64,000 nucleotides of DNA from Solirubrobacterales bacterium. Its GTDB lineage: Bacteria; Actinomycetota; Thermoleophilia; Solirubrobacterales; Solirubrobacteraceae. Shown in pieces: positions 9,310-27,158 of this stretch. The notes below the pieces were generated by a model. It saw only the letters and a program-made list of their open reading frames with translations, searched no databases and was not told the DNA's origin. The stretch spans positions 176,392-240,391 of the forward strand of contig DAIDME010000089.1 in NCBI GenBank assembly GCA_027449125.1, read 5' to 3'. The position numbers and the translations under genes are program-made. The stretch's first letter is position 1; each line of letters begins with the position of its first letter.

Positions 9310-9337
9310 AGTGTCACCTTATCGCGGAGCAGCTGCC

Positions 9338-10003
9338 TCAAAGCAGGCGCCCGAGGCTCATCTGCAGCGAGCGGCAACCTAGCGCGTCTAGGACGTCCAG
9401 GTTCTGCTCGACGAGCACGAGCGTGATCGAGCCGCGCAGCGCCTGCAGGGCTTCGATGACGACGTCAACCACATTGGCCGCAAGCCCTTGACTGGGCTCG
9501 TCCAGCATCAGCACGCGCGGACCGGTCATCAATGCGCGGCTGATCGCAAGCATTTGCTGCTCACCGCCGGAAAGCGATGACGCTCCGACGCCTATGCGGT
9601 CCCGCAGCCGCGGAAACAGCGCTAGCACGGTCTCCAGCCGGCGTCGATGCTCGGCATCAAGCCGCGATCTCCCACGCGCCATCACGGTGACGTCAAGGTT
9701 CTGGCGCACCGACAGCGCGCCGATCACCTGACGGCCCTCGGGAACCAGCGCCAGTCCGGACCGCACCCGCTGATGGACTGGGCGCCCGGCCAGGTCGAGA
9801 TCATCGAGCTCGACCTGGCCCCCGCTCATTCCAATCAGCCCGGCGATCGTGTTCAGCAGCGTACTCTTGCCGGCCCCATTGGCGCCGGTGATGCCGACCA
9901 CCTCGCCGGGCTCGCAGGCGAAGGTGATGTCGTGGAGAACGGTCACTGATCCGTATCCGGAGCAGAGGTCAGTGACCCGGAGCTCGCCGCCGGCCATGCT
10001 CAC
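9338..10003 (-). CDS. livF: Branched-chain amino-acid-type ABC transporter ATPase (LivF-like)
   Basis: One of two ATPase modules of a HAAT-type importer. Walker A 'GANGAGKST' lies at about residue 41, the LivF-typical 'ALVPEGRQV' follows, the signature 'LSGGEQQML' is near residue 144 and Walker B 'VLMLDEPSQGLA' follows. The 221 residues are slightly short for LivF (about 235). It overlaps the LivM-LivG gene by 4 bp (ATGA) and is the last gene of the 13-gene operon. Confidence 0.9.
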   Translation of the reverse strand: MSMAGGELRVTDLCSGYGSVTVLHDITFACEPGEVVGITGANGAGKSTLLNTIAGLIGMSGGQVELDDLDLAGRPVHQRVRSGLALVPEGRQVIGALSVRQNLDVTVMARGRSRLDAEHRRRLETVLALFPRLRDRIGVGASSLSGGEQQMLAISRALMTGPRVLMLDEPSQGLAANVVDVVIEALQALRGSITLVLVEQNLDVLDALGCRSLQMSLGRLL

Positions 10004-11904
10004 GCGGCCCCCTCGGCCGGCCGCAACAAGGCGCCACGGGCCTCACGGCTGCCAAGCAGCTCCTGCGGCGGCCCCGACCTGACGATGCGCCCCACATCCA
10101 TGACGTAGACGAAGTCCGCAAGGCGCTGGACAAAGTCGAGGTTGTGGTCGATCACTAGGACGGCGGCGCCGGCGTCGCGGAGCCTCACGATCCATTCCTG
10201 CAACTGCTCGATCTCACCAAGCGACAGGCCAACGGCGGGCTCATCGAGCAGGCACACGCTCGGCTCCTCGTCGAGTGCACGCACGAGCTCTACGAACTTG
10301 CGCTCGCCCGTCCCGAGCGTGCTCACGCGGCGCTGGGCGAGCTCGTCGAGCCCAGCTTTCGCAAGCCGCTCAAGGGCGGTCTCCCGGTGCTCGCGCTCAC
10401 GCGCAGCAGACCGCCACCAGACCGTCCCCTCACCTGCCTCACGGCCCAGCATCACGTTGTCAAGGACGCTCAGGTCCTCGACCAGCCTTGGCACCTGAAA
10501 GGTCCGCGCCACGCCCAGGCGCGTGCGCTGCGCCGCCCCGAGTGCCGTGATGTCCTGCGTACCAAGGCTCACCCTTCCGCCGTCCAGCCGCTCGACGCCT
10601 GAGATCATGTTGACGAGCGTGGACTTGCCGGCGCCGTTGGAGCCGATCAGCGCCGTGACCCTGCCCGCCTCCAGGGTCAACGACACCGAGTCGACGGCGA
10701 CCACACCGCCGAAGCGCCGACTCGCGTCTGTGATTTCAAGGTTCCGGCGCTCGCCGTGCACTCCCACGGACATCCCATCCCGCTCTGAATGCGCCCGGGC
10801 GACGGAGGGATCGTCGACGCGGCGCTCAGCCGCGCGGCCGCGCGCCGCCACAGCCTCACCGTCCGGCGCGTGGCGGGCACGGCGAACTGCGGCCCGCCGG
10901 CGCAGGCGCTGAGCTGCATCGCTGACGGCCCCGCCGATACCCGCCCGCAGGTAGAAGGCGCACAGCAGGAACACCAGGCCGTAGACCAGCAGCGAGTAGT
11001 TGCCCGCGGTGTCCACCAGCGCCTGCACCCAGAGAATGACGAGTGCACCGAGAAACCCGCCGTAGCTGTAACCGACGCCGCCGATCACCACGAGCGCCAC
11101 GAGCTGGACCGACTCGATCGCCCCGACACTGTCGGGCGTGATCAGGCCTTCGAAAGGGAAGAACAGGGCACCGGCTAGCGCCGGGAAGAACGAAGCGAGC
11201 ACGAACAGGCCAAGGCGCGCCCTGAAGGTGCGAACGCCCAGCACGCTCGCCACCAAGTCGTCGGCTCTCACGAGCTTGAAGATGCGGCCGCGCCGGCCGG
11301 CGACTGCCCATCGGTAGACGGCAAGCGAGATGGCGGCACACACCAGCCCGACCACATACCAGCCGAGGTTGCTCTGGACAGTGGTGAAGCCCAGACCGAG
11401 CACGCGCAGCGTCGTCATACCCGACGTGCCGTTAGTGGCGTTCGGGTAGGCGGCGATGAGACCCGCAAAGGCCGTTGCCAGCCCGAGGTAGGCGACGGCG
11501 AAGTAGTGCTGCGAGAGCCTCACCAGAACGAAGCCGACGATCACAGCCAGCGCCATCGTCAGCGCGATCGCAGCGAGGATTGCGGGGACCAGCGGCCAGT
11601 GCCAGTGACTGGTGGTAAGCGCCACGGTGTAGGCAGAGGTGCCCAGAAAGCCCGCACTCCCCAGCGAGAGCATCCCGCCGTACGCAAGCAGCAGGTTGAT
11701 CCCAGTGCAGGCGATGCCAAGCAAGCAGGCCTCGGCAGCGAGGTTGAGCGTGAGGCGCGGTATGCCGTAGACCGGCAGCGCAGCGAACACCACGATCGCG
11801 ACGGCGGCCAGTCCCAGGGGAGCGAGGCCGGCCGGCCGGTGCGCAGCGTCAGCCTTTCGTTGACCGGTCAGGCTCATGTTCCGCACGCTCCGCGGCCGCG
11901 ACAT
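10000..11904 (-). CDS. livMG: Fused ABC permease-ATPase (LivM-LivG)
   Basis: A 634-residue fusion of the second permease and an ATPase of the importer. Residues about 30-335 form the LivM domain with 8-9 helices ('GINLLLAYGGMLSLGSAGF', 'ESVQLVALVVIGGVGYSYGG'). A charged linker (about 335-385) joins it to the LivG ATPase, with Walker A 'GSNGAGKST' near 420, the LivG-style 'GVARTFQVPRLVEDLSV', signature 'LGTGERKFVELVRAL' and Walker B 'VCLLDEPAVGLS' near 550. The signature starts LGTGE instead of LSGGQ. Fusion keeps permease and ATPase at 1:1. It overlaps livF by 4 bp and follows livH by 13 bp. Confidence 0.9.
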   Translation of the reverse strand: MSRPRSVRNMSLTGQRKADAAHRPAGLAPLGLAAVAIVVFAALPVYGIPRLTLNLAAEACLLGIACTGINLLLAYGGMLSLGSAGFLGTSAYTVALTTSHWHWPLVPAILAAIALTMALAVIVGFVLVRLSQHYFAVAYLGLATAFAGLIAAYPNATNGTSGMTTLRVLGLGFTTVQSNLGWYVVGLVCAAISLAVYRWAVAGRRGRIFKLVRADDLVASVLGVRTFRARLGLFVLASFFPALAGALFFPFEGLITPDSVGAIESVQLVALVVIGGVGYSYGGFLGALVILWVQALVDTAGNYSLLVYGLVFLLCAFYLRAGIGGAVSDAAQRLRRRAAVRRARHAPDGEAVAARGRAAERRVDDPSVARAHSERDGMSVGVHGERRNLEITDASRRFGGVVAVDSVSLTLEAGRVTALIGSNGAGKSTLVNMISGVERLDGGRVSLGTQDITALGAAQRTRLGVARTFQVPRLVEDLSVLDNVMLGREAGEGTVWWRSAAREREHRETALERLAKAGLDELAQRRVSTLGTGERKFVELVRALDEEPSVCLLDEPAVGLSLGEIEQLQEWIVRLRDAGAAVLVIDHNLDFVQRLADFVYVMDVGRIVRSGPPQELLGSREARGALLRPAEGAA

Positions 11905-11917
11905 GCCTGACCGTGGG

Positions 11918-12790
11918 TCATGCGCGCACAGCCCCGGAGAATCGCTGGCCCCGGCCCAGGTACATCACACCGATCACCAGCAGCACGCCGAAGACCAGCG
12001 GCGTCTCCAGGGCCGTGTTCACGTACGTACCCACTAGCCCCTCGCCGATCGCCAGGAACATCGCGGCAATCAATGCGCGTGCGGGGGACACCATGTTTGC
12101 AAACGCCGCCGCCGCGAACCCGTTCAGCGTGAGTGGCAGGCCCACGTCGTAGCCGATGCCCACCTCCGGCACCACGAGCAGCGCCGCTGCCGCGCCGAGC
12201 AGCCCGGCCAGCGCGAACGACAACGTGCGCATCAGCCCGGCGTTGATGCCAAGCAGCCCGCTCACCTTAGGGTTCTCGGCAACCGCCGTCATTGCGTGGC
12301 CGAGCAGGGTCGAACGGAAGAAGACCACGATCAGGGCCACGAGCGCGAGCGTGACCCCGATCAGGAGCAACTCCTGCGGGCTGATCGCCGCTCCGTCGAC
12401 ATAGACCGACCCCCCACCGAGAACCTGCGGGAACACGAGCTGGTTGCCGCCGATCAGGAAGTCCGCGACGCCTTCCGCGAACACCGCCACGCCAACCGTG
12501 ACGATGATCAGCCGTGACGGCTCCCAATCCATGCGGCTGCGCAGGGCCAGCCGCTCGTACACGGCCGACCCTACGACCGCCGCCGCCACGCCGGCTAGCG
12601 CCGCAAGCCAAAGCGGGACCCCCCAGCCAAAGAGCTTCGCCGTCAGCACTCCGCTGACCATGTACGTCTCCCCCTGGGCGAGGTTGACGATGCGTGAGCT
12701 GCGATAGCAGAGCACGATGCCAACCGCAATCAACGCGTCAACGGAGCCGTTGACGAGTGACGAGAAGACCGTCTGGATCAGCAGCGCCAT
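11918..12790 (-). CDS. livH: Branched-chain amino-acid-type ABC permease (LivH-like)
   Basis: First permease of the importer, 290 residues with about eight helices. Family motifs are the N-terminal 'NGSVDALIAVGIVLCYRSSR', 'IVNLAQGETYMVSGV', 'GHAMTAVAENPKVSGLLGIN' (the cytoplasmic loop that contacts the ATPases) and 'ALIAAMFLAIGEGLVGTYV'. It sits between the binding protein gene (42 bp upstream) and the LivM-LivG fusion (13 bp downstream). Confidence 0.92.
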   Translation of the reverse strand: MALLIQTVFSSLVNGSVDALIAVGIVLCYRSSRIVNLAQGETYMVSGVLTAKLFGWGVPLWLAALAGVAAAVVGSAVYERLALRSRMDWEPSRLIIVTVGVAVFAEGVADFLIGGNQLVFPQVLGGGSVYVDGAAISPQELLLIGVTLALVALIVVFFRSTLLGHAMTAVAENPKVSGLLGINAGLMRTLSFALAGLLGAAAALLVVPEVGIGYDVGLPLTLNGFAAAAFANMVSPARALIAAMFLAIGEGLVGTYVNTALETPLVFGVLLVIGVMYLGRGQRFSGAVRA

Positions 12791-12832
12791 GTCCGGTTCC
12801 GGCCGGAGCCCGCCTCCTGCTGGGCCTGCCTT

Positions 12833-14068
12833 CTAGAGCTTGCCCTTGACCGGCTGCCAACCGGCGTTCGGGTTACGCGGCGCCTTCGCCATCGCGGAGG
12901 GCTGGTTGTTGATCACGTTCAGGCCGGGGAGGTTGAAGCGCATGCTCGAGCCGAGGCAGCTGATCTGCCGGGTCTTGAGGTAGTGGACCAGCCGGGCCAC
13001 GTTGGGACCGGCCGCCTTCAACGCGTTGAGCGCCACGCATCCGTCATAGACCGCTGAGGTGGTCTGCGTGTCAGCTGGCTCATGTTCGACCTTCCTGAAC
13101 GACCTCATGTAAGCGTCAAAGACCTTGACGGTCCGCGCCGGCAGGCCCGTTGTGGTGACCAGCAGCTGCGAGTTGCCGTACAGCTTCGGCGGGATCTTCG
13201 CCAGGCTGCGCAGGAAGCCGTCCGTGACGGCCGCGGCGCCGGCAACGATCGGAAGCGACATCCCGAGTGTGGCATACGAGTTCACGGCGGCGGCCGTGTT
13301 GGTGCCGACGCTGGCCAGATAGATCACGTTGGCGCCCTCCTGGCGCAGCTGTAGCAGCTGGGGCGTAACGTTGCTCACCCCCGGCGTCTGCGCCGCCGAA
13401 ACCACCTTCAGCCCGACGGCTGCAGCAGCCTCTTGGACGGACGCGAGCTGATGCGTGCCCGAGGTGTCGGTCGTGTAGAGCACGCCAACCGTGTGCATCC
13501 TCGCGGCCTTGGCTGCCTTGGCGAAGACAAGCAGCAGCCCCTTGGATGAACCGGTCGCCTGGAAGACCTTCGTGTTTGACGTCGGGTAGAGGATCGGGTC
13601 TACGGCAATCACTACATCCTTGGTCAGGTAGGGGAGCGCGCCGCGCGTGGCGGGATCGATGCTCTGAACGAGCACGACGTGAGTGTTATCCCCGGCTGCC
13701 TGTTGAGCGCACTGCGCGGCGCCGGTCGGCGTGCTCTGTGTGTCACAGAAATGCAGCTCGATGTGGTGCCCGTCTATTCCCCCGGCCTTGTTGATCTGGC
13801 CGACATACCAGTTGATGCCGGCTTTCTGCGCGGCCCCGCCGGCCGCGTCGGTGCCGGTCTCGTCGACCAACGAGTTGATCACCCAGGTCGACTTGACCGC
13901 CCGCTTGTGCGCCGACCGGTGCGTGCTGGCGCTACTCGTGGTCGCGAGCGCGCCCGAGATGCCCCCGCCCACCACGACCGCCGCCGTGCAGCCAAGCGCC
14001 AGGGGCCTCTTGATACGCGCCAGCCGTCGGGCTGAACCGCCCTGCCCCGAGCTGTGTTGATTACCCAT
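12833..14068 (-). CDS. livK: Extracellular solute-binding protein of the importer (LivK/periplasmic-binding fold I)
   Basis: A 411-residue exported receptor. The ATG at 14068 is preceded by GAGGAG. The N-terminus has basic residues ('ARRLARIKR') and then a hydrophobic segment ('ALGCTAAVVVGGGISGALA') fitting a signal peptide or anchor; no lipobox cysteine follows. The mature part has the type I binding-protein pattern: 'AGINWYVGQINKAGGIDGHH', 'VVLVQSIDPATRGALPY', 'KAARMHTVGVLYTTDTSG', 'LLQLRQEGANVIYLASVG'. A pair of cysteines ('HFCDTQSTPTGAAQCAQQ') is typical of this family. The bound ligand is unknown; context suggests a nitrogen-containing organic acid. Confidence 0.88.
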   Translation of the reverse strand: MGNQHSSGQGGSARRLARIKRPLALGCTAAVVVGGGISGALATTSSASTHRSAHKRAVKSTWVINSLVDETGTDAAGGAAQKAGINWYVGQINKAGGIDGHHIELHFCDTQSTPTGAAQCAQQAAGDNTHVVLVQSIDPATRGALPYLTKDVVIAVDPILYPTSNTKVFQATGSSKGLLLVFAKAAKAARMHTVGVLYTTDTSGTHQLASVQEAAAAVGLKVVSAAQTPGVSNVTPQLLQLRQEGANVIYLASVGTNTAAAVNSYATLGMSLPIVAGAAAVTDGFLRSLAKIPPKLYGNSQLLVTTTGLPARTVKVFDAYMRSFRKVEHEPADTQTTSAVYDGCVALNALKAAGPNVARLVHYLKTRQISCLGSSMRFNLPGLNVINNQPSAMAKAPRNPNAGWQPVKGKL

Positions 14069-14138
14069 CTTTGTCTCCTCTCGCTCTTGAAACGAACTAC
14101 GTGTCACACGCCCACTCTCAACTCTCCGTGAGCCACGC

Positions 14139-15218
14139 TCAAGGAGAGGTCTCCTCCAGCAGCCACTCGGTCGGGACCTCCTGTCCAAGGCCCGCGCGCT
14201 CGGCTCGCTCCAGCACGAACGCGCCGACGGCCGCAAACTGCAGCCCCATCCCGGTGTTGTTGGCAAACACGGTTATCTGCTCGCGGTCAGCACGGCCAAG
14301 CGATGGCTCCAGCAGCAGGTCCCCAAGCTCGACGATCTCCTCGAAGCTCTTCAAACCGCGTTCGACCGGACCCAGGATGTCAATCTGGTTGTCGTGATGG
14401 ACCTGCTCCTTGGAAAAGACCGCGATCACATCGGCGCGGTCGAAGGTCGTGTCATCCAGCTCGCGGCGCATGGCTGTGCCGTCAGGGCTCGTGATGCTCG
14501 TGACGTGCGTGCCGGGCTCCAGTGCCGCCCCATCGAAACAGGGATCGAACCCGGCCGTAGCGCACGTCACCAGGCCGCAGCCCACCACCGCGTCGTGAGG
14601 GTCACTGACAGGCACGATGCGCTTTCCGGTTCGCCTGCTCCACTCAACCGCAAAGCGCTCCCTGTGGGCGGCCGTGGGGCTGTACACCCGAACCTCCTCG
14701 ACGCTCGGGCGCACACTCAACATGTACTCGAGGTGCGCCTGCGCCTGCCAGCCGGAGCCGAAGAGGCCCGCGGTCCGCACGTCGTCGTTGGCCAGCTCGC
14801 GGATACCGAGCGCCGACGTAGCACCGACACGCATCTTCTGGATGTACGAGTCGTGAATCATGGCCAGTGGTTCCAGGCGCTGCAGCGAGTAGAGCGTGAT
14901 CAAGCCGCAGTAGCGCTCGCCCGTGGCCACCGGCAGCAGCCGCCTGCGCTTCACGCCGCCGGCCAGCAGCTCCGTACCAACCATGTCGGACGTGATCCGC
15001 AGAGCCCAGACGCCGCTGGAGACGTTGCCGCCCTCTTGGCTCTTGAAGCGATACCTGAAGCCCTCGAAGCGGGGGTCCTCCTTGGGGAAGTAGGTGTGGT
15101 TGCGCGGCCGATTGGCGGCAGCTCCCTGGGCGTACTCCCTGTAGGCCGCCTCGAGCACGCGCAGGCACTCGTCAGCGTCAAAGACCCGCTCAACGTCCTG
15201 ATTGCTGAGGATGCGCAT
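14139..15218 (-). CDS. Ornithine cyclodeaminase / mu-crystallin family protein
   Basis: NAD(P)-dependent enzyme of the family that includes ornithine and lysine cyclodeaminases, ketimine reductases and pyrroline-2-carboxylate reductase. The 359 residues show the family start ('MRILSNQDVERVFD'), 'KMRVGATSALGIRELA', the Rossmann loop 'GLFGSGWQAQAHLEYML' near residue 150, 'VRVYSPTAAHRERFA', 'VTCATAG' and 'HVTSITSPDGTAMRREL'. The Rossmann loop is GxGxQA, as in the family. The substrate is open: within this operon, reduction of a cyclic imine or deamination of an amino acid are both plausible. The M24-like gene ends 65 bp upstream. Confidence 0.85.
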   Translation of the reverse strand: MRILSNQDVERVFDADECLRVLEAAYREYAQGAAANRPRNHTYFPKEDPRFEGFRYRFKSQEGGNVSSGVWALRITSDMVGTELLAGGVKRRRLLPVATGERYCGLITLYSLQRLEPLAMIHDSYIQKMRVGATSALGIRELANDDVRTAGLFGSGWQAQAHLEYMLSVRPSVEEVRVYSPTAAHRERFAVEWSRRTGKRIVPVSDPHDAVVGCGLVTCATAGFDPCFDGAALEPGTHVTSITSPDGTAMRRELDDTTFDRADVIAVFSKEQVHHDNQIDILGPVERGLKSFEEIVELGDLLLEPSLGRADREQITVFANNTGMGLQFAAVGAFVLERAERAGLGQEVPTEWLLEETSP

Positions 15219-15283
15219 CCCGGCTCACCACTCCCTTCGCATATGCCGTGGCACGGCTGTGTTGTGATTCATGATCCACTCGC

Positions 15284-16405
15284 TCAGATCTCGATCTCGA
15301 ACAGGACCCGTGGGGTCGCAAGCAGCGGCTCCCAGCCGTCGTCGGTAACGACGACCGGATCCCCAAGAACGTGGTAGCCAGCCAGCGGTGTGAACGTGTT
15401 CGGATGAACGATCACCACCGAGCCGGCCTCGAGCACGGTGTCCTCGCCCTCAACGATCGCAACCTCGTCCAGGTGTGCGCCGTGACCGTGCCCGCGCACC
15501 CTGGTCCACTGAGCGGTGCAGTACTCACCCAGGCCATGTGACCTGAACACGTCGTTCTCAGCCAGTGCGACGTCGTGCGCTGTGACACCGGCGCGTAGCA
15601 CGGCAAGCCCCGCCTCCAGCGCCTCGCTGAAGAGTTCAAACGAGGCGCGCTGGGCGCTGCTGGCCTGACCCAACACAGCGGACCGACAGATCTGCGTCCA
15701 GTAGCCATCGCACTGAGGCGTCAGCTCCGTGCGAACCATGTCGCCCGGCTCGAGCCTGCGGCTGGAGGGTGGGGTCATACCCCTCACATCCGCTCCACCC
15801 GATGCGATCAGCATGAAGTTGTCGGTGGCGCCAAGCCGTTTGAGCGCGGCCTCGGTGCTCGCCACCACCTCGTATTCCGTTGCGCCCGGACGTAGCGACC
15901 CGAGCAGGGCATCCCACGCCGCATCGGTGATCTGCCCGCAACGGCGCATGCGTGCCAGCTCTTGACCGGACTTGACCAGCCGCACCGCGCTCATCAGCCT
16001 GGTGGCGCTCACAAGCCGTGATGCACCACCGAGTGACGCCGCAATGGCGTCGCGAAAACCAAGTGGCAGCAACTCCAGGTGGGAGACGCCCAGGGTTTGC
16101 GGCCGCTGCCCGCCGGCGAGCATCCCGACCAGTTGGACGAGACCAGATGGGTCCAGGTCGCGCACGTCCGTGACCCAACGGGCGGCTGCGAACGCCTCAC
16201 GGTCTTTGGCCAGCGCGAAGGCCGTAGCCTCACCCTCAGCTGGCAGATACAGAAACGCGAAGCTCCCGTTGAGCTGCACGTCCGCCAGGTAGCGCAGGTC
16301 TTCCCGGCGCCACCCGGGCGCGTAGCCGAGCAGGGCGTCGACACCATCAGCTGCCATCTGTTCGCGCACGCGCGCCCAGCGCCAGTCGCGCTCAGCCAAG
16401 TTCAC
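15284..16405 (-). CDS. Creatinase/aminopeptidase-P-fold protein (M24 family) lacking most metal ligands
   Basis: A 373-residue protein with the two-domain M24/creatinase layout: an N-terminal domain of about 140 residues ('VREQMAADGVDALLGYAPGW') and a C-terminal 'pita-bread' domain. In M24 metallopeptidases the metal is held by D, D, H, E, E. Here the first D is E and the second Q in 'RTELTPQCDGYWTQICRS'. The histidine is present in 'RGHGHGAHLDE', but the following glutamate position reads 'VIVHPNTF' and the last E is also absent. Creatinase is a known metal-free member, so a C-N hydrolase of creatinase type is more likely than a peptidase. GTG start overlaps the upstream gene by 4 bp. Confidence 0.82.
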   Translation of the reverse strand: MNLAERDWRWARVREQMAADGVDALLGYAPGWRREDLRYLADVQLNGSFAFLYLPAEGEATAFALAKDREAFAAARWVTDVRDLDPSGLVQLVGMLAGGQRPQTLGVSHLELLPLGFRDAIAASLGGASRLVSATRLMSAVRLVKSGQELARMRRCGQITDAAWDALLGSLRPGATEYEVVASTEAALKRLGATDNFMLIASGGADVRGMTPPSSRRLEPGDMVRTELTPQCDGYWTQICRSAVLGQASSAQRASFELFSEALEAGLAVLRAGVTAHDVALAENDVFRSHGLGEYCTAQWTRVRGHGHGAHLDEVAIVEGEDTVLEAGSVVIVHPNTFTPLAGYHVLGDPVVVTDDGWEPLLATPRVLFEIEI

Positions 16406-17397
16406 GCCGCCGCCTCCAGACTCCGAGTCAGCGGCTCGCTGGATGATCCGGCAAGCAGATAGGTGTCGGCCAGCCGAACCGCCCCGCGACCCACCCGTAG
16501 GACAAAAGCGCCGCCCGGCGGCAGGGAGTCGGCACTGTTGGGCGGCACCATCAGGTCGCCGTCGGTAGCGATGTCGGTGTGGCTGATCAGGCTCACCAGC
16601 ACGCCATCACCGGCGGCTCGCTGCAGCGCCGCGAGCGTTACCTCAGGGGCGAGCGCCGCCGAGGCTGCGGCGAACGCCGCCTCGAGCGCGCTGTCGCCAT
16701 CAGCCATCCGTGACCCGTGCGCCCAGACGTTGGCAAACTGCACGCTGCATTCGACGTGCAGCCCGAACGCCGTGGGGAGGCAGCGCGCAATCACGTCCCG
16801 GGCCCCGCCGGCGCGCGCCGCGAACTCGAGCTCGGCGATCCGTTCGGCAGGCGTGCCATTCCCGTCCACGGCGGCACCCAGACCAGCACGAACGAGCGCC
16901 CCCGCACGCCTGATGTCAGCGCGGTCGAGCGCGTCGGGGACGATGCGCTCCGTGCGCACCGCTTCGGGCATGTCGACGTATGCTCGATCTGAGTGAGTCG
17001 AGCGAATCCCATCGACCAGCGGCGCCGGCCACCACCGCTCATCGACCAGGCCTACTTGGCCCGCCCTCCGCTCATCCAGGTACGCGCCGATCAGCTCCGG
17101 AAGCTGCTGCGAAGCGCGCAGATCGGTCAACGTACTGGTGCGCCGCATCCACGGATGCACGCGCTTGGAGAGCTTCGCGAGCAGCGCAGCAGATCCCTCC
17201 GTTGGGACGGCCACCACGCCTTCATTCCAGTAGATACAGAGGTTGGTGAGGTGCGCTATGTCGTCGGAGCGGTAGACGTCGCCGTACAGCAGCGCGACCT
17301 CGACCCCGGCGTGACGCATACGCTCCCGCAGACGTTCAACGCGGGCCTGGTACACATCGGCGTTCGCGCCAACCGGCTCGACTAGACCACGCTTCAC
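16402..17397 (-). CDS. Second creatinase-like protein, degenerate M24 domain
   Basis: A 331-residue protein whose first 140 residues resemble the creatinase N-terminal domain ('RVERLRERMRHAGVEVALLY'), while the C-terminal half is a shortened, divergent pita-bread domain ('LEFAARAGGARDVIARCLPT', 'LPPGGAFVLRVGRGAVRLAD'). None of the five M24 metal ligands is recognisable. It overlaps both neighbours by 4 bp, so it is translated together with the adjacent M24-like protein. A partner subunit in a hetero-oligomeric enzyme is a reasonable guess, not shown by the sequence. Confidence 0.72.
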   Translation of the reverse strand: MKRGLVEPVGANADVYQARVERLRERMRHAGVEVALLYGDVYRSDDIAHLTNLCIYWNEGVVAVPTEGSAALLAKLSKRVHPWMRRTSTLTDLRASQQLPELIGAYLDERRAGQVGLVDERWWPAPLVDGIRSTHSDRAYVDMPEAVRTERIVPDALDRADIRRAGALVRAGLGAAVDGNGTPAERIAELEFAARAGGARDVIARCLPTAFGLHVECSVQFANVWAHGSRMADGDSALEAAFAAASAALAPEVTLAALQRAAGDGVLVSLISHTDIATDGDLMVPPNSADSLPPGGAFVLRVGRGAVRLADTYLLAGSSSEPLTRSLEAAA

Positions 17398-17909
17398 GAC
17401 GACTCACCGGCCAGGCGCGCCGCTATCGGAATCAGACCACCGCCACGCAGCATCTCCAGCAGGAACGGGTCCGTGGGCCGACCGTCGATGACGGCGCCGG
17501 TGCGCTCGTTGGTCAGCGACCCCGCGACTATGTCGACACTCACGCGATCCCCGTCGCTGACGCACTCACGCACGTGAGGGATCTCTAGGATCGGCAGGCC
17601 AATCTCAAAGGCGTTGCGGTAGAACGTTCGCGCAAAGCTCTCGGCCACCACACACCCTACACCGGTCGCCTTGATCGCCTTTGTGGCGATCGCACGCCCC
17701 GACGATTGCCCGAAGTGGCGCCCCGCGACAAGCACGTCGCCGACCCTGACGCCTGGCGCAAAGCCCGGGTGGGCGTCCTCCAAGACGTGCCGCACGATCT
17801 CCTCCATCGGCAGGAACACCCTGTGAGACTTCACCATCTGGTCAGACGGGATGTTGTCGCCAACGACCCAGGCGCGCCCGACCGTCTGCAAGGAGACGGG
17901 CATGCTCAC
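17394..17909 (-). CDS. Aconitase/isopropylmalate-isomerase small-subunit-like protein, pair B (degenerate motif)
   Basis: The 171-residue swivel-domain subunit of a two-subunit aconitase-family enzyme (LeuD-like). The fold signature is clear ('VGDNIPSDQMVKSHRVFLPM', 'VVAESFARTFYRNAFEIGLP'). The loop that in LeuD reads like 'GRNFGCGSSREHA' is 'GRHFGQSSGRAIA', losing the cysteine and the charged residues. It pairs with the cysteine-less large subunit immediately upstream (4-bp overlap) and precedes the creatinase-like genes (4-bp overlap). Confidence 0.85.
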   Translation of the reverse strand: MSMPVSLQTVGRAWVVGDNIPSDQMVKSHRVFLPMEEIVRHVLEDAHPGFAPGVRVGDVLVAGRHFGQSSGRAIATKAIKATGVGCVVAESFARTFYRNAFEIGLPILEIPHVRECVSDGDRVSVDIVAGSLTNERTGAVIDGRPTDPFLLEMLRGGGLIPIAARLAGESS

Positions 17910-19201
17910 AGCTCACCGCCGGCAGCCACCGTCGCCAGCTCCTCGCCAGCGACCAGTTCGCGCGGGTCGGTGATCCGGCCGCGGGTCGCCGACGCAGCGA
18001 CGGTCAGGGCCGACCCCAGGTACATCTCCGCCTTACTCGAGCCATTGCGACCCGGGAAGTTCCTCGCGTGAGTCGAGATCATTCGCTCACCCGCGCTCAG
18101 AGCGCCCATGTTGACCGCCTGGTTGGAGCCGGTCGACGGCGGGAAGAAGGTCGCTCCGGCGTCGTGCAACTCCGCCACCAGCCCCTCCTTCAGAGCCTGC
18201 GCGAAAACCTGGCGGCTCGACGGCACGAGGTTGAAGCGTACGTCAGGGTGTTTCGGAGCCCGCCTCAGCACCCAGGCTGCCAGCCGCAGATCCTCTATAC
18301 GCCCGCCGCCGTGACCACCCAACTCCGCCCACGTGATCTCGAGGCCCGCAACCTCATCAACCGCATGGACGTTGCCGACGGTGGGCGGGCATGCGACCTG
18401 CGGCGCCAGCTCCGAAACGTCGTAGCTCCAGCACTCGCTCACATCGCCGGGGTCACCGTACACCGGCTGATAGGCGCGATGCGCCGGCAGTGAGGCCAGA
18501 AAGCGCTCTGTGACCTCGTCCGGCTCGATCAGGCCACATTTCGCGCCAACATCGATCGTGATCAGCGGCAGCAGCCACCGGTCCCAGAAGGTCAGCGTCT
18601 CCACGAAGGCACCCTCGAACTGCAGCGCCTTGTAAACCGCTCCGCCTTCACCGATCTCGCCGACCAGCCAGAGCGCCACATCCCGCACGGTTGTCCCTGG
18701 TCTCAGCTTGCCGTCAATCTTCACGTGAACCGTTTCGGGAACACGAAACCACGCCTTGCTGTAGGGCAGCACCATGCCAGCGTGGGAGTCATTGCCGATA
18801 CCCGTGGCGAACGCTCCCAGCGCACCGTAGACCGGGGTATGGCTGTCAGAGCCGACGATGACGCTGCCCGGGACCGCGTGGCCGCCATGCGTGACGACGT
18901 GATGGATGTTGCCGTGGCCGCAGTCATAGAGATTCAGCCCATGCCTGCGCGCCCAGGCTCGGTCGTGGACGAGGACGTCCGCAGTAGCCTCGGTGGCAGG
19001 CGCAAACGTGTGGTCGAAGACGACCGTCACGCGATCCGGGTGGCGGACGGGCAGGCCGACACGCTCCTCGTAGACCCTCGATGTCAGGTAGGCGCTCAGG
19101 TCGTGCATGACCAGGCCGTCCACCTCGGCGACGACGATCTCTCCAGGGCTGACCCGGTCGCGGCCGCCGGCCCGCGCCAGGATCTTCTCGACCATCTTCA
19201 T
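17906..19201 (-). CDS. Aconitase/LeuC-like large subunit, pair B, without iron-sulfur cysteines
   Basis: A 431-residue large subunit of the aconitase family. It keeps the substrate-site frame ('GSDSHTPVYGALGAFATGIG', 'PQVACPPTVGNV', 'STHARNFPGRNGSS', 'ASATRGRITDPRE'). All three cysteines that hold the [4Fe-4S] cluster are gone: the 'IGSCTN' position reads 'LGGHGGGRIEDLR' (C to H), and the 'PGCGPC' position reads 'PPSTGSNQA' (C to T and C to N). The rest is well conserved and the gene is intact, so this looks like a changed function, not decay. It overlaps the LeuC-like A gene and the LeuD-like B gene by 4 bp each. Confidence 0.9.
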   Translation of the reverse strand: MKMVEKILARAGGRDRVSPGEIVVAEVDGLVMHDLSAYLTSRVYEERVGLPVRHPDRVTVVFDHTFAPATEATADVLVHDRAWARRHGLNLYDCGHGNIHHVVTHGGHAVPGSVIVGSDSHTPVYGALGAFATGIGNDSHAGMVLPYSKAWFRVPETVHVKIDGKLRPGTTVRDVALWLVGEIGEGGAVYKALQFEGAFVETLTFWDRWLLPLITIDVGAKCGLIEPDEVTERFLASLPAHRAYQPVYGDPGDVSECWSYDVSELAPQVACPPTVGNVHAVDEVAGLEITWAELGGHGGGRIEDLRLAAWVLRRAPKHPDVRFNLVPSSRQVFAQALKEGLVAELHDAGATFFPPSTGSNQAVNMGALSAGERMISTHARNFPGRNGSSKAEMYLGSALTVAASATRGRITDPRELVAGEELATVAAGGEL

Positions 19202-20496
19202 GCCACCACCTCTACATCCGCTCGGCTTGCCGGGATGAACTCACGGGGGTCGGTGATCCGGCCGGTCACCGCAGACGCGGCCGCTGTCGCGGGGCTCGCG
19301 AGAAAGATCTCCGACTCGTAGCTGCCCATCCGCCCGCGGAAGTTGCGGTTGGCAGTGGACAGCGTGCGCTCACCATCCGCCATCACGCCGCCGTCGCCGG
19401 CGCACGCACCGCAGCCCGGGTTGGTGATGAGCGCCCCCGCCTCCAGCAAAGTCGCGATGATGCCGCTGTTGACGGCATCGGTGAGGATCTGCCTGGACCC
19501 CGGGGTCACCACCAGCCTCACGCCGCTTGCCACCGTGCGACCTTCGAGGATCGCAGCGGCCTGGGCGAGGTCGTCATACTTCGCGTTCGCGCAAGAGCCG
19601 ATGAACACCTGATCAAGGGCGCTGCCGGCTACCTCGTCGATCGGACGGACGTTATCAACCGAGTGCGGGCAGGCCACCTGCGGGACCAGTTCGCGACCGT
19701 CGATCTGAATCGTCTCACGGTAGGTCGCGCCTGGGTCGGGCCACGTCGGGTCATATGCGTCCGCTGCCACCCCCCGCTCCGCCAGATATGCGACGGTTGT
19801 CTCGTCAGCCGGTACCACGGCGTTCTTCGCGCCCATCTCCATGGATAGATTGCAGAGCGTCGCGCGCTCGGAGACCGACAAGCCCTGAGCCCAGGCGCCG
19901 TGAAACTCCACCGAGCAGTAAGTTGCTCCGTCAGCGCCCACTCGGCCGATCAGGCTGAGCATCACGTCCTTGGGGAACACGCCCAATTGCAGGGGACCAT
20001 CTACCTCAACCCGAAGCGACTCGGGCACCTTCATCCAGAGCTTTCCCGTCACCCACGTCGCCGTTATCTCCGAGAAACCCACCCCGGTTCCGAACGCTCC
20101 CAAGGCCCCGTAGATCGTCGAGTGTGAGTCGGTCCCGATGATCAGCTGGCCTGGGAGCACGTGGCCGTTCTCCATCAACACCAGGTGGGCTATGCCGGCG
20201 TTGACATCCCAGAACTTCTCGATCCCGTGCTCGCGGGCAAAGGCCCGGCACAGCTGGTGGTGCTCGGCCGTCTTTGAGGTCTGTGCGGGCGAGAGGTGGT
20301 CCATGACCATGGCGATCCGCTCCGGTGCGAACAGCGTGCGACCCGGCATCCGCTCGAGCGTCCTGATGCAGCGCCAGCTGGCGACGTGACTCATGTAGAG
20401 GTCCGGGTACGCGTCAACGATCATCCCCGGCTCCAGGCCGGATTCACCGGACGCCCGCTCCAGAACCTTCTGCGCAAACGTCAGCGGGCGGCTCAT
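19198..20496 (-). CDS. Aconitase/3-isopropylmalate dehydratase large subunit-like protein, pair A (cluster cysteines intact)
   Basis: A 432-residue hydro-lyase large subunit. The cluster cysteines are present: 'VFIGSCANAKYDDL' and 'NPGCGACAGDGG'. Other family hallmarks are 'GTDSHSTIYGALGAFGTGVG', 'PQVACPHSVDNV', 'TPGSRQI', 'STANRNFRGRMGS' and 'SAVTGRITDPREF'. It is probably catalytic in dehydration/rehydration (isomerisation) of a hydroxy-di- or tricarboxylate. It is LeuC-like, but no leuA or leuB is nearby and it lies in a catabolic operon, so leucine synthesis is not implied. 4-bp overlaps on both sides. Confidence 0.9.
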   Translation of the reverse strand: MSRPLTFAQKVLERASGESGLEPGMIVDAYPDLYMSHVASWRCIRTLERMPGRTLFAPERIAMVMDHLSPAQTSKTAEHHQLCRAFAREHGIEKFWDVNAGIAHLVLMENGHVLPGQLIIGTDSHSTIYGALGAFGTGVGFSEITATWVTGKLWMKVPESLRVEVDGPLQLGVFPKDVMLSLIGRVGADGATYCSVEFHGAWAQGLSVSERATLCNLSMEMGAKNAVVPADETTVAYLAERGVAADAYDPTWPDPGATYRETIQIDGRELVPQVACPHSVDNVRPIDEVAGSALDQVFIGSCANAKYDDLAQAAAILEGRTVASGVRLVVTPGSRQILTDAVNSGIIATLLEAGALITNPGCGACAGDGGVMADGERTLSTANRNFRGRMGSYESEIFLASPATAAASAVTGRITDPREFIPASRADVEVVA

Positions 20497-21023
20497 CGCT
20501 GCGCCCCTTCTGCGCCAGCCAGGTACGGCAGCAGCCCGCCGGCGTCGAGAATCGCACTCAGGGTGGGCGGATAAGGCGCAAACTCGTAGCGCCGCCCCTC
20601 GACCGTCACCTCGCCGCTGCCGTGATCAACGGACACTGCGTCACCATCGCGCGCGGCAGCCACCGCGTCCGGGCACTCGACTGCCACCAATCCGGTGTTG
20701 ATCGCGTTGCGGAAGAACACGCGTGCGAAGGACCGTGCGACCACAGCCTCGATGCCGGCGCCCAGAAGCGCCGTCGCAGCTTGCTCTCGGGCGCTGCCAC
20801 AGCCGAAGTTGCGCCCGGCGACCACCACCTTCGCGCTCAGCAACCGGCGCTGGACCTCCTCCCCAAGCGGCTCGAAGGCGTGCGCCGCAAGCTCGACCGG
20901 ATCGATCGAAACCAGGTATCGGCCGGGGATGATCACGTCCGTGTTGACATCGTCGCCGAACGTTATGCACGGGCCACCGGCGCGGCGGCTCCGCGTGGCC
21001 GCCGCATGTGTGTCAGCTGTCAT
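20493..21023 (-). CDS. Aconitase/3-isopropylmalate dehydratase small subunit-like protein, pair A
   Basis: A 176-residue LeuD-like swivel subunit. It has the canonical 'FGDDVNTDVIIPGRYL', 'GRNFGCGSAREQA' (substrate-recognition loop) and 'VVARSFARVFFRNAINTGL'. It overlaps the pair A large subunit by 4 bp, so the two form one enzyme. Together with pair B this gives two complete aconitase-like enzymes in one operon. RidA lies 13 bp upstream. Confidence 0.9.
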   Translation of the reverse strand: MTADTHAAATRSRRAGGPCITFGDDVNTDVIIPGRYLVSIDPVELAAHAFEPLGEEVQRRLLSAKVVVAGRNFGCGSAREQAATALLGAGIEAVVARSFARVFFRNAINTGLVAVECPDAVAAARDGDAVSVDHGSGEVTVEGRRYEFAPYPPTLSAILDAGGLLPYLAGAEGAQR

Positions 21024-21036
21024 CTACGTCCTTTGC

Positions 21037-21471
21037 TCAATTGGCGGATGAGTAGGCGGTGCCGTGAGAGGTGCCCGTGCCCGGAAGTGCGGCCACGGCT
21101 TCGATCTCCACGAGCTGGTCGGATGAGACCAAGCGGGCCACCTCAAACATCGTGGATGCCGGAAACGGCGCCTTGAAGAAACGTGAGCGCGCGGCGGCAA
21201 CCTCACCAACGCGACCCATGTCGCACACGTACACCGTCAACTTCACGATGTTCGCGACGCTGCCACCGGCACGGCCCAGGAGCTCCTCGATTGACTCCAG
21301 AATGCGAGTCGTCTGGGCGCCCATATCGCCGGGCGCGTAGGTGGAGCCATCCGCGTTCTTGGCGGTCAGCCCGCTTATGAACAGCAGGCGGTCACTGGCG
21401 TCCACCTCAACCGCATGGGAGAGCGGCGCGTTCAGACCGAGCGACTCCAGGTTCAGGCTGCGGATCGCCAC
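21037..21471 (-). CDS. RidA/YjgF-family protein (enamine/imine deaminase)
   Basis: A 144-residue RidA-fold protein. Characteristic parts are 'LLFISGLTAKNADGSTYAPG', 'TRILESIEELLGRAGGSVAN', 'VKLTVYVCDMGRV' and 'LVEIEAVAAL' near the end. The usual catalytic arginine in the late '..R..V' position is not seen ('FFKAPFPASTMFEVARLVSS'), so deaminase activity is uncertain. RidA proteins in catabolic operons often hydrolyse reactive enamines or imines, which fits the neighbouring cyclodeaminase-like gene. It overlaps the SDR gene by 19 bp. Confidence 0.82.
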   Translation of the reverse strand: MAIRSLNLESLGLNAPLSHAVEVDASDRLLFISGLTAKNADGSTYAPGDMGAQTTRILESIEELLGRAGGSVANIVKLTVYVCDMGRVGEVAAARSRFFKAPFPASTMFEVARLVSSDQLVEIEAVAALPGTGTSHGTAYSSAN

Positions 21472-22181
21472 GGCATCTCCCTTGTGACCATCGAGCCGCT
21501 CATCGACGCGGCGTCCGAGAGCAGGAACATGAGCCCACCCACCGGCTCCTCCGGGCCGTCGAGCTTCGAGGTGTCCATACCTGGGTTGGCGGCGCGAAAC
21601 TGTGGCGTGTCAATGATCCCCGGTCGGCACAGGTTGACTCGGATGCGCCATTGCGCGACCTCACGGGCGAGCGTCTTTGCGAACGACGCCACCGCACCTT
21701 TCGAGGTTGTATACGGGGCCGAGCCAGCCTTGCCAAAGTCAGCTGTGCCGGAGGCGAACATCACGATCGAGCCAGAGCCCTGCTCCCGCATGACAGGAAC
21801 CACGGCCCGCGAGGCCCAGATCGAGCCGAGCAGATTCACGCCCAGAACCCGCTCCCACGTCGCCGGCTCGACGTCAACCACATCCCCGATTGGCTGGACT
21901 ATGGCCGCGCACACGAGGCCGTCGATGCGCCCGTGGCGAGACCGCACCGTCTCAACGAATGTCTGAACCTGGTCGGCGCTGGAGACATCTACCTGCTCAA
22001 ACTCGATCGCGCCCGGCGCATGCGTCTCAGCGGCCAGCGCGCGACCGGCCTCCACCTGCACATCCGCGATGACAACAGTCGCCCCCGCAGCGGCCGCTCG
22101 GCGCGCCAGCGCCGCTCCGATGCCGTTGGCGCCGCCCGTGACAATCACGACTCCGCCCGAAAAATTGAAACTTGCGTTCAT
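21453..22181 (-). CDS. Short-chain dehydrogenase/reductase
   Basis: A 242-residue classical SDR. The NAD(P)-binding motif is 'TGGANGIGAALA' near residue 15. 'NLLGSIWAS' carries the active-site Asn region, and a Ser ('IVMFASGTAD') precedes the catalytic 'YTTSK' (Tyr/Lys). The C-terminus is slightly unusual ('SGSMVTREMPWRSAA') and lacks the common 'DGG' end. First gene of the long operon; a promoter with a LysR-like palindrome lies 120-190 bp upstream. It probably oxidises a hydroxyl group of the pathway intermediate (inference). Confidence 0.88.
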   Translation of the reverse strand: MNASFNFSGGVVIVTGGANGIGAALARRAAAAGATVVIADVQVEAGRALAAETHAPGAIEFEQVDVSSADQVQTFVETVRSRHGRIDGLVCAAIVQPIGDVVDVEPATWERVLGVNLLGSIWASRAVVPVMREQGSGSIVMFASGTADFGKAGSAPYTTSKGAVASFAKTLAREVAQWRIRVNLCRPGIIDTPQFRAANPGMDTSKLDGPEEPVGGLMFLLSDAASMSGSMVTREMPWRSAA

Positions 22182-22305
22182 GATGAGCCTCTCCCGCCCT
22201 CTCCGATAAGGCCGACGCTCGGCCGCGACTTCGGTTTGCGGCCGTTCTCAGCCCGCCAGCGCAGAGCGTCATCTGCCGCTGCGCAACTCTCCACCGCTGC
22301 CCACC

Positions 22306-22335
22306 ACACTAGGCGCGATCCGCCCACGAGTCCAA
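22306..22335 (-). promoter_or_regulatory. Putative promoter of the SDR-Liv operon
   Basis: On the minus strand, TTGGAC (22335-22330) and TAGTGT (22311-22306) are separated by 18 bp, in the 223-bp spacer upstream of the SDR gene. This would give a leader of about 120 nt. Confidence 0.45.
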
Positions 22336-22354
22336 TACAACTTCTCAGCGTTGC

Positions 22355-22370
22355 ATAGCCTATGGACTAT
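22355..22370. promoter_or_regulatory. LysR-type palindrome (ATAG-N8-CTAT) upstream of the operon promoter
   Basis: A perfect interrupted inverted repeat, ATAG-CCTATGGA-CTAT, centred about 65 bp upstream of the predicted transcription start. That is the usual position of the activator site of LysR-type regulators. The LysR gene at 24.2 kb is the obvious candidate regulator (inference). Confidence 0.4.
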
Positions 22371-22404
22371 GGCTTGCGTGCCTGAATGCGACTTGGGCCC
22401 GCGC

Positions 22405-23322
22405 TCAGCGGCTAGCGCCGTCCACCAGCACGCCGATCAGCAGGTCGGCGACCTCGTCGCTGTTGGCTTCCAGCATCATCATGTGCCCATTGCCCTCGAT
22501 CCCGTGGTCGGCCAGCCACATGAGCCTCGCCTTGGCGCCCTGAGCCCGCCACCAATCCACCAGGCCCGCATCAACCTCGCGGGGATGATCAAGATCCGCA
22601 CTGCCGGTCACCACCGTGATGTCGAGACCTGCCAGTCGCTGGGGTTCGCCCACGCGTAACTGCGAGCCCCCGACATTGGCGCGCTCATAGACCAGACGCG
22701 CCGCGGTGGGGCTGACCAGCTGCGCATACGCGGCCACCGCGGAGGCCGGAAACTGGGTACCGGCCCCCACGAGCTTTGCGTCGATCATCGCCCGGGACGC
22801 GCGTGAGTAGCGCTCGCTGGGAACGCTCACCAATCTGGTGCCGGTGGCGACCACGACACCCCGCTCATCCTCGCTGACGAGAGCACCCACCGGCGCACAG
22901 TTCCCCGGCGCCGCCGGCGCCACGGCCAGCACATGCGTGATCCGCTCTCTGCACAGCTCGGCCACGCGCCACGCAAACGCCGCACCCATCGAGTGGGCCA
23001 GGAGCACAACCGGGGTCGGCAGCGCTCGCACCAGCGCGGCCAGCGCGCCTGCCACCACGTGGCCGTCCAGTCCCTCGAGCAATGCGCCCCCGCTGCGCCC
23101 GTGCCCGGGCCAGTCTGGAACGGTGACCTGGTATCCGGCCGCGGCGAAGCGGTACGCCCAGCCCGGCCGGCCATCGGCCGTGAGCATGTAGCAGCTGCCG
23201 GTATGGCTGCCACCGTGCACCATCACGACGTTTGGGAGCGAACCCGAGCGCTCCGGGATCAGCTGGTCGAAATAGACGGGCGCGGGCGCGGCTAGGAAGC
23301 CGGCGCGATGCCGGAAGCTCAT
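22405..23322 (-). CDS. Alpha/beta-hydrolase fold protein
   Basis: A 305-residue hydrolase. It has an oxyanion segment 'VVMVHGGSHTGSC', 'VPDWPGHGRSG', the nucleophile elbow 'LLAHSMGAAF' (AHSMG) near residue 117, and a C-terminal 'GNGHMMMLEANSDEV' with the catalytic histidine. The ATG at 23322 gives a clean N-terminus ('MSFRHRAGFLAAPAPVYFDQ'). An ester- or lactone-type substrate is likely but unidentified. It lies upstream of the operon on the same strand, separated by the promoter region, and is divergent from a broken IclR gene. Confidence 0.85.
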   Translation of the reverse strand: MSFRHRAGFLAAPAPVYFDQLIPERSGSLPNVVMVHGGSHTGSCYMLTADGRPGWAYRFAAAGYQVTVPDWPGHGRSGGALLEGLDGHVVAGALAALVRALPTPVVLLAHSMGAAFAWRVAELCRERITHVLAVAPAAPGNCAPVGALVSEDERGVVVATGTRLVSVPSERYSRASRAMIDAKLVGAGTQFPASAVAAYAQLVSPTAARLVYERANVGGSQLRVGEPQRLAGLDITVVTGSADLDHPREVDAGLVDWWRAQGAKARLMWLADHGIEGNGHMMMLEANSDEVADLLIGVLVDGASR

Positions 23323-23425
23323 TCGCGGCGATAGTGTATTTTCGCTTGAGCGCAGATGCGACCCTATGCGCTTTCGTGGTGGCGAACAAACGTGCACTTC
23401 TGGACTTCTGGCTGAGCCGGGCAGG

Positions 23426-24187: not shown

Positions 24188-24223
24188 AGCCCCGCCAGCG
24201 GCTACCTCACGGCCACGCCCACA

Positions 24224-25204
24224 GTGGACACTAGGATCTCCATCTACAAGCTCGAGGTTCTGTGCGAGGTGATCTCCAACGGTTCGGTCACACGCGCGGC
24301 CTCGAGGCTGGGAGTCGCACAGCCCGTCGTGAGCGCACACCTGCGCTCACTGGAGAGCCGCCTTGGGGTCCGCATCGTTCAGCGCGACGGACGCGGAATC
24401 GTGCTCACTCCAGCCGGGGAAATCGTGTATCGCTGGGCGACGGAGGTCGTCAATGACACGCGGCACCTGGGCACTCTGCTCGAGGCACTCACCCGGGACG
24501 GCGCTGAGGCGCTCAGCGTCACGACCGGGATCAACGGTGCAAGCAATGGCATAGCCCACGCGGTGGTGCGCTTTCAACTCCAGCATCCAGGCACGCGGAT
24601 CGACCTCAGGGTGCTGCCGACCGATCAAGCCGTCGCAGCCGTGCTCAAGCGCGAGAGCGATCTCGCGGTGGTGTCCTATGCGTCCGCTCTCGAGCTAGAC
24701 GCCGCGCTCGAGCTCACGCCCCTGGCGACCGACGAGCTCGTTCTGGTCGCCTCACCGGATCTGGCCGCCGCAACTCTGGCCCCCGAGAGCCGAGCCAACG
24801 GCGACCCCGCCGCGACTCGGCCACGACCTCGCCGCAGGCAGCTGTCCGTGAGTTCGAAACAGCTCGCGGAGATACCGTTCGTCTGCACGCCCGGCGGGAC
24901 CGTCAGGCGCGCGGCGATTGACCGCGCGATGCTCGAGCGTGGCGTCAAGGCCCGGCACCTGGTGATGGAAGTCCGGTCCGAGACTGCCTTCCATGCCGCC
25001 GTGCGTGACGGCATCGGTTTCGCCCTGCTGTCTCGCCGCACGACCATCGAGATGGTTTCGCGAGGCCAGCTCACCGAGGTCGCCATGCCGGGCGGGCCCG
25101 TCTCAATCGGCATCCATCTGGTGTCACGACGGGACCTCGTGCCGCTGCCGTTACATCGGCTGTTCCGTGAAGCTGTGCAGGCGGAGCTCGAGACCGGCGG
25201 CTAG
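24224..25204 (+). CDS. LysR-type transcriptional regulator
   Basis: A 326-residue regulator with an N-terminal winged helix-turn-helix ('GSVTRAASRLGVAQPVVSAH', 'LRSLESRLGVRIVQRDGRGI', 'LTPAGEIVYRWA') and a LysR substrate-binding domain ('LSVTTGINGASNGIAHAVVR', 'SDLAVVSYASA', 'VRDGIGFALLSRRT'). GTG start at 24224. An insertion rich in Arg and Ala ('RANGDPAATRPRPRRRQL') sits in the middle of the effector domain. It lies near the catabolic operon and is the best candidate regulator for it. Confidence 0.9.
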   Translation: MDTRISIYKLEVLCEVISNGSVTRAASRLGVAQPVVSAHLRSLESRLGVRIVQRDGRGIVLTPAGEIVYRWATEVVNDTRHLGTLLEALTRDGAEALSVTTGINGASNGIAHAVVRFQLQHPGTRIDLRVLPTDQAVAAVLKRESDLAVVSYASALELDAALELTPLATDELVLVASPDLAAATLAPESRANGDPAATRPRPRRRQLSVSSKQLAEIPFVCTPGGTVRRAAIDRAMLERGVKARHLVMEVRSETAFHAAVRDGIGFALLSRRTTIEMVSRGQLTEVAMPGGPVSIGIHLVSRRDLVPLPLHRLFREAVQAELETGG

Positions 25205-25223
25205 CGGTCGAGGCCGCTGGGAC

Positions 25224-27158
<1,935 letters not shown>

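Follow-up and report, generated by a model that had tools for sequence, protein, structure and literature searches.

Aconitases supply the classic textbook example of an iron-sulfur (Fe-S) cluster that serves as a Lewis acid and not in redox chemistry. Members of the superfamily with an altered metal centre are known, namely aconitase X, including mevalonate 5-phosphate dehydratase, and as far as the accessible text of PMC8184944 goes these proteins still bind a cluster, which is [2Fe-2S], with a [3Fe-4S] form thought to be derived from [4Fe-4S]. Phosphomevalonate dehydratase likewise remains an Fe-S enzyme (PMC10040528, accessible part), and the gene of a proline enzyme of the aconitase X kind is often located in hydroxyproline clusters (PMC5144071, accessible part). 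In fungal lysine synthesis, homoaconitase and aconitase work in series, two aconitase-family enzymes splitting one isomerisation (PMC3556520, in the text available). Here we describe an aconitase-family large subunit without the cluster cysteines, named LeuCx, and its small subunit, named LeuDx, encoded in a 64,000-nucleotide stretch of DNA from a Solirubrobacterales bacterium (the window; positions 176,392 to 240,391 of contig DAIDME010000089.1, assembly GCA_027449125.1; Table 1). We lean towards LeuCx-LeuDx being a cluster-free aconitase-fold enzyme that would isomerise a di- or tricarboxylate by proton transfer, its reaction probably lying one step from that of the cluster-bearing LeuC/LeuD dehydratase encoded next to it. 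In contrast, nothing in the available text of PMC3556520 suggests a cluster-free member of the fungal series.

When LeuCx was aligned with the large subunits of M. jannaschii isopropylmalate isomerase and homoaconitase and with mitochondrial aconitase, H297, T357 and N360 occupied the columns of the aconitase ligands C358, C421 and C424. An earlier note, made from the window sequence, had claimed exactly this replacement of all three cysteines by His, Thr and Asn, and the alignment bore it out. LeuCx does not possess the three Cys ligands of [4Fe-4S] that mark the cluster-bearing enzymes; compared with the HacA-like M. jannaschii proteins MJ0499 and MJ1003 (4kp1, 4kp2), it is without the cluster cysteines and the cluster-side residues and scores below the subfamily cut-offs. 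Shifted but present cysteines were looked for and the residues had not shifted, the adjoining sister LeuC reading CCC in the same columns, as did 70/70 LeuC rows of the alignment that held the LeuCx rows. Sequencing error was ruled out by the homologues: among the best 120 of 7580 matches, the ligand positions read H/T/N in 120/120, of which one is the window protein itself and the remaining 119 have 61-85% identity.

Loci from named genomes were then compared, using the best 80 of 531 confirmed; 63 carried LeuCx, and 17 with an ordinary LeuC were left out of the LeuCx counts. The window plus one sequence per locus gave 64 LeuCx rows (open reading frames, ORFs, over 300 amino acids only). Cys was found at a ligand column in 0/64 rows, which came from several phyla and included one row frameshifted at two columns. 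The three letters were HTN in 41 rows, SAN in 16, HAN in 3, HSN in 2, TSN in 1 and HHQ in 1, the last two letters of HHQ (L048) being uninformative because the frame shifts after H297. N360 was present in 63/64 rows, the sole exception being this frameshifted row, and position 357 was T, S or A in 63/64 (Ala in 19/64; His in the frameshifted row). Ser stood in place of H297 in 16 rows that form a divergent subclade, mainly of Acidobacteriota and Gammaproteobacteria, and Thr in one row. The H/T/N conservation that the earlier note had proposed to check was thus upheld for the absence of Cys and for N360 and failed for the His. The loss of the cysteines is fixed in the rows examined, and with the exception of N360 the residues that stand in for them differ between rows. 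PF00330 may contain further clades without the cysteines.

The active-site residue roles used here, given in aconitase numbering, are in part those that we assume for aconitase. We also take N258, E262 and N446 to belong to the part of the pocket that faces the cluster. Other residue roles were taken from the accessible part of PMC8184944. Equivalents of D100, H101, H147, D165, S166 and H167 were kept in every LeuCx row with a letter at those positions, and those of R447 and R452 in 62/63 rows, the exception being the frameshifted row; in LeuCx's own numbering the kept residues are D63-H64, H100 (64/64 rows), D119-S120-H121, R380 and R385. Ser70 and Arg72 of LeuDx align by motif with the proton-abstracting S642 and with R644 of aconitase; across 43 LeuDx sequences, the conservation of both was at least 97%. 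LeuCx and LeuDx together have the acid/base and carboxylate-binding residues of the cluster-bearing LeuC, HacA and aconitase enzymes, invariant or nearly so, as the earlier note had said of the substrate-site motifs. On the cluster side, N258 was replaced by Leu in 60/64 rows, E262 by Asp in 64/64, and N446 by A, S, V, T or P. At position N170 the Asn is missing from LeuCx and from the cluster-bearing LeuC alike. Such a selective pattern is expected of a pocket adapting to life without the cluster, whereas random decay would not spare the acid/base and carboxylate residues.

Missing cysteines could in principle result from decay or sequencing error, an explanation of negligible probability that was refuted for the LeuCx clade as a whole. 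Damaged copies do exist: a frameshifted one in an Actinophytocola metagenome-assembled genome (L048:1666-4456) and a frameshifted or split one in one genome of the L035 genus (G495:C111:221008-222257). Set against them are the uniform H/T/N of the listed matches and the ratio of nonsynonymous to synonymous substitution rates (dN/dS), which was 0.03-0.08 in five of six LeuCx orthologue pairs; the sixth value, 0.37, came from over-extended ORFs (625 codons) and was not relied on.

It is unlikely, in our estimate, that a different metal has taken over from the cluster in LeuCx-LeuDx, such as a mononuclear iron or zinc with C94, H297 and a pocket His or Asp as ligands. C94 was present in 47/47 rows with H297 and in 1/17 rows without it, the two residues co-occurring as if acting together near the old cluster site, and aconitase X illustrates that neither the type of cluster nor its ligands are fixed within the superfamily (PMC8184944, accessible part). 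However, the SAN and TSN rows, which have similar neighbours, are without H297 and in 16/17 cases without C94, so a C94/H297 metal cannot be common to the clade, and the Ala at position 357 of many rows also speaks against it. A universal H/T/N metal site was rejected as a general feature because 17/64 rows read SAN or TSN. LeuCx was also rejected as an aconitase X: that protein carries Cys both in place of H147 and in the C421 region (PMC8184944, accessible part), whereas LeuCx has the invariant H100 at the first of these and no Cys in the C421 region or at the other ligand columns.

LeuCx belongs to the aconitase fold family, with a PF00330 match above the curated cut-off and a predicted aconitase fold. 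The model appears intact and confident (predicted template modelling score, pTM, 0.91; local score in Table 1), and its residues 1-416 match isopropylmalate isomerase and homoaconitase large subunits. The nearest type is the HacA/LeuC large subunit of two-subunit isopropylmalate isomerases and homoaconitases, with scores under the curated NCBIfam subfamily cut-offs (378.6, 362 and 354.2 bits for the set NF001614, TIGR01343 and TIGR02086, against 385, 385.7 and 410.15) and below those of the leucine-synthesis LeuC equivalogs (TIGR02083, 298.6 against 610.65 bits; TIGR00170, 141.1 against 560.25 bits). Another PF00330 protein (561 bits), encoded at C47 of the window's genome, is read as the genome's LeuC. 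On the equivalog scores and this separate protein, a role of LeuCx in leucine synthesis is unlikely. The listed homologues, where named by their sources, were mostly labelled 3-isopropylmalate dehydratase, and this label is probably wrong.

A quick tree of 122 proteins was built, in which a length filter of 380-470 amino acids for the window and locus rows left 47/64 LeuCx rows; the program warned of several long branches. LeuCx formed one clade on a long stem (SH-aLRT, the Shimodaira-Hasegawa-like approximate likelihood ratio test, 100), which points to a single origin. The sister LeuC of most loci formed a separate clade (33 rows, support 100), and in five loci (Clostridia, Spirochaete, Flexilinea) the LeuC adjoining LeuCx belonged to a third lineage. 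The intact sister copy that the earlier note had seen beside LeuCx does keep all three cysteines, but it falls in a different clade; since the two are in separate clades, a recent local duplication is not supported, and LeuCx is not read as a tandem copy of its sister. Hosts of LeuCx include Actinomycetota, Bacillota, Myxococcota and other "Deltaproteobacteria", Pseudomonadota, Acidobacteriota, Spirochaetota and Chloroflexota. Alicyclobacillus kakegawensis and Geodermatophilus sabuli are among the cultivated hosts. The gene is rare in the window's own lineage: among 396 genomes of its phylum, no LeuCx match above 370 bits was found beyond the window's own, and among 61 relatives including its own genome, only its own passed at E 1e-120.

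Locus genes were assigned by best BLAST match to the window genes, "LeuC" here including the third lineage. A recurrent cassette was observed, comprising an Fe-S-type LeuC/LeuD, LeuCx/LeuDx, two M24-fold proteins (M24a and M24b) and an ornithine cyclodeaminase homologue (OCD). Among the 63 loci, LeuDx was present in 60, LeuC in 53, M24a in 49, LeuD in 49, OCD in 48 and M24b in 47, with all six in 34, many loci being cut by contig ends; in the 31 loci with long flanks, the counts were LeuDx 31, LeuC 30, M24a 29, LeuD 30, OCD 25 and M24b 29. In the L035 genus (Pseudonocardia, 62 genomes), a search at E 1e-80 found LeuCx in at least 6 genomes, M24b in at least 5 and the sister LeuC in at least 21, the last number being high because more distant HacA-type proteins also pass. 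At orthologue level (LeuCx at least 789 bits or two abutting halves, M24b at least 579, sister LeuC at least 779), one and the same set of 5 genomes had all three. It would seem that in this genus the cassette is gained and lost as a whole, although the three genes are linked and their co-occurrence is therefore not a set of independent observations. Sister-level LeuC (at least 717 bits) was present in 4/8 genomes searched (L031, L035, L039, L050) and was not found in the other four; the searches of L047 (Xaviernesmea) and L016 (a 1.8 Mb record) returned only LeuCx itself, and the L046 and L043 genomes gave more distant HacA-type matches of 298.5 and 367.7 bits.

These data bear on another reading, which we judge rather improbable: that LeuCx-LeuDx has no catalytic activity and serves to stabilise or regulate LeuC/LeuD, its cluster-bearing partner. 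LeuC and LeuD together lie within the flanks in 30/31 long-flank loci, the genes overlap in the window, and M24b/M24a form a second pair with one divergent member, all of which would suit a partner. The kept acid/base and carboxylate residues argue against it, as do a small subunit of its own for LeuCx, an adjoining LeuC of another lineage in five loci, and the genomes L047, L016, L046 and L043, in which no sister-level LeuC was found. A LeuC usually adjoins LeuCx but is not of one particular lineage, and this speaks more for two enzymes acting in succession than for a single obligate mixed complex. The earlier note had offered a cluster-free enzyme or a regulatory or structural partner. Its first half gained good support at the sequence level because the ligands and cluster-side residues were lost together while the acid/base residues were kept, dN/dS is low and the modelled fold is intact; its second half was weakened by the own small subunit (60/63 loci; 31/31 with long flanks), the separate clade, the other-lineage LeuC in five loci and the Xaviernesmea genome, in which no sister-type LeuC was found.

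In the favoured cluster-free enzyme, LeuCx and LeuDx would form one active site at the subunit interface. R380, R385 and S120 of LeuCx and R72 of LeuDx would hold two substrate carboxylates, the S70 alkoxide of LeuDx would abstract a proton from carbon, and His/Asp pairs of LeuCx would return it. Without a Lewis-acid iron, no activation of a hydroxyl leaving group is expected, so the pair should favour reactions that move protons only, such as double-bond migration or epimerisation, or else additions and eliminations whose leaving group departs more easily and requires no hydroxyl activation; hydroxyl chemistry (dehydration) would be left to the neighbouring cluster-bearing LeuC/LeuD. The neighbours would supply the rest of a pathway, with uptake, C-N hydrolysis by the creatinase-like M24b/M24a, imine or amino-acid redox chemistry by OCD, and dehydration by LeuC/LeuD. 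The M24 and OCD homologues, RidA and the amino-acid/acid transporters suggest a nitrogen-containing carboxylic acid as candidate substrate, and the pathway is apparently catabolic, undescribed and spread over several phyla. Apo-aconitases can also bind RNA; in E. coli, apo-AcnB does so with the mRNA that encodes it (PMC4150767, accessible part). That LeuCx is an RNA-binding or sensing regulator of the apo-aconitase/IRP1 kind is nevertheless very improbable, given the kept active-site residues, the metabolic gene neighbours and a search of positions 9000-25500 in which no Rfam family was found (Rfam covers described families only).

Several observations weigh against the favoured enzyme and its pathway. 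The retained residues would also fit a ligand-binding protein, and the C94-H297 pairing makes another metal site possible in the HTN subclade. The "neighbouring step" is weaker as a general rule because in 4/8 genomes no sister-level LeuC was found. The pathway rests on neighbours, and these vary: the M24 genes are absent beside LeuCx in several Deltaproteobacteria loci, and OCD is absent in the Clostridia, Spirochaete and Flexilinea loci and in L057 and L058.

The Deltaproteobacteria loci without an adjoining M24 pair were L009, L010, L014, L016, L027 and L041, L014 and L016 being short contigs. A UbiD-type decarboxylase is encoded in L010, and a gene from the same cluster occurs in L027. M24 proteins elsewhere in the L009, L010, L016, L027, L046 and L047 genomes showed only 33-40% identity to the cassette M24b (31% in L041). 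At L047:8645-9982 and L046:5931-8177, LeuCx-LeuDx was found with the rest of the cassette not nearby; the neighbours were MmgE/PrpD, a transporter and a CoA-transferase III in the former, and an enoyl-CoA hydratase and a CoA-transferase III in the latter. LeuDx occurs twice in tandem in L020, L040, L042 and L045 (Clostridia, Spirochaete). PreA-like (dihydropyrimidine-dehydrogenase-type) and TRAP-permease-like genes lie upstream in these loci and in L032; of the PreA-like genes, only that of L040 was named by family search.

The usual M24 metal ligands, on which the M24b positions were based, we take to be D, D, H, E and E. At these five positions M24b has E227, Q238, H306, H334 and G348 (prolidase alignment; conservation in 41 sequences), so that by sequence it appears to be without the usual ligands and to have a conserved set of its own. 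M24a had no family match in Pfam or NCBIfam; its profile matched M24b (probability 99.8%) and its model matched prolidases (E 1.7e-17), and by profile and predicted fold it is a remote M24 relative. The two make up a second paralogue pair in the gene run, with one member highly divergent. Creatinase and the ectoine hydrolase DoeA have the M24 fold in common with M24b/M24a and presumably work without metal. M24b differs from them in its own residue set and in its scores, 66.8 bits for creatinase and only 22 bits for DoeA.

In the window, LeuD, LeuC, LeuCx, LeuDx, M24a and M24b are consecutive, with 4-base ATGA/GTGA overlaps at 5/5 junctions (starts as in the ORF list), and OCD, the transporter of the branched-chain-amino-acid (Liv) type, RidA and SDR are in the same run as LeuCx. 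The best solved match of OCD was delta1-pyrroline-2-carboxylate reductase. Relatives of all four Liv-type ORFs are present in L017; the start of the binding-protein ORF was chosen by the analyst. One ORF (10000-11904) resembles a fused LivM permease and LivG ATPase, and an ORF of similar length occurs in L017.

Table 1. Features of the LeuCx region, with positions in the window.
Feature	Position	Strand	Evidence
LeuCx, aconitase-family large subunit	17906..19201	-	431 amino acids; PF00330 E 1.4e-56; model pLDDT (predicted local distance difference test) 89.9
LeuDx, partner small subunit	17394..17909	-	171 amino acids; TIGR02087 135.7 bits, cut-off 108.95
LeuCx H297 codon (ligand-replacing)	18311-18313	-	codon mapping
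LeuCx T357 codon (ligand-replacing)	18131-18133	-	codon mapping
LeuCx N360 codon (ligand-replacing)	18122-18124	-	codon mapping
LeuCx C94 codon	18920-18922	-	co-occurs with H297 (18311-18313)
LeuC sister, HacA-family large subunit, CCC	19198..20496	-	NF001614 517.6 bits, cut-off 385
LeuD, small subunit adjoining sister LeuC	20493..21023	-	TIGR02087 167.2 bits, cut-off 108.95
M24a, divergent creatinase/prolidase-fold protein	16402..17397	-	no Pfam/NCBIfam match; profile and model
M24b, M24/creatinase-like protein	15284..16405	-	PF00557 E 9.8e-30; prolidase alignment
OCD, ornithine cyclodeaminase/mu-crystallin family	14139..15218	-	PF02423 E 1.9e-31
Branched-chain-amino-acid-type ABC transporter, four ORFs (binding protein, LivH, LivM-LivG fusion, LivF)	9338..14068	-	named by eye
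RidA-family protein, same gene run	21037..21471	-	PF01042 E 3.1e-22
SDR oxidoreductase, same gene run	21453..22181	-	PF00106 E 5.2e-50
LysR-type regulator	24224..25204	+ (opposite strand)	ORF named by eye

No description of a cluster-free aconitase clade or of the LeuCx cassette was found in the literature searched, in which subscription journals were thinly covered. What appears new, judged from sequence, is a cluster-free variant within the aconitase superfamily, whereas aconitase X changed its cluster but stays an Fe-S protein. In the wider reading, which we regard as evenly balanced, a widely scattered aconitase-fold clade would have abandoned the cluster for good in favour of residue-only chemistry. 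Together with two operon partners, a relative that bears the cluster and a creatinase-like pair without the usual metal site, it would be central to a pathway, so far unrecognised, that acts on a nitrogen-containing carboxylic acid. A clade that keeps the fold and the acid/base machinery without the cluster would amount to a natural experiment on the need for the cluster, and LeuCx is a possible oxygen-tolerant scaffold.
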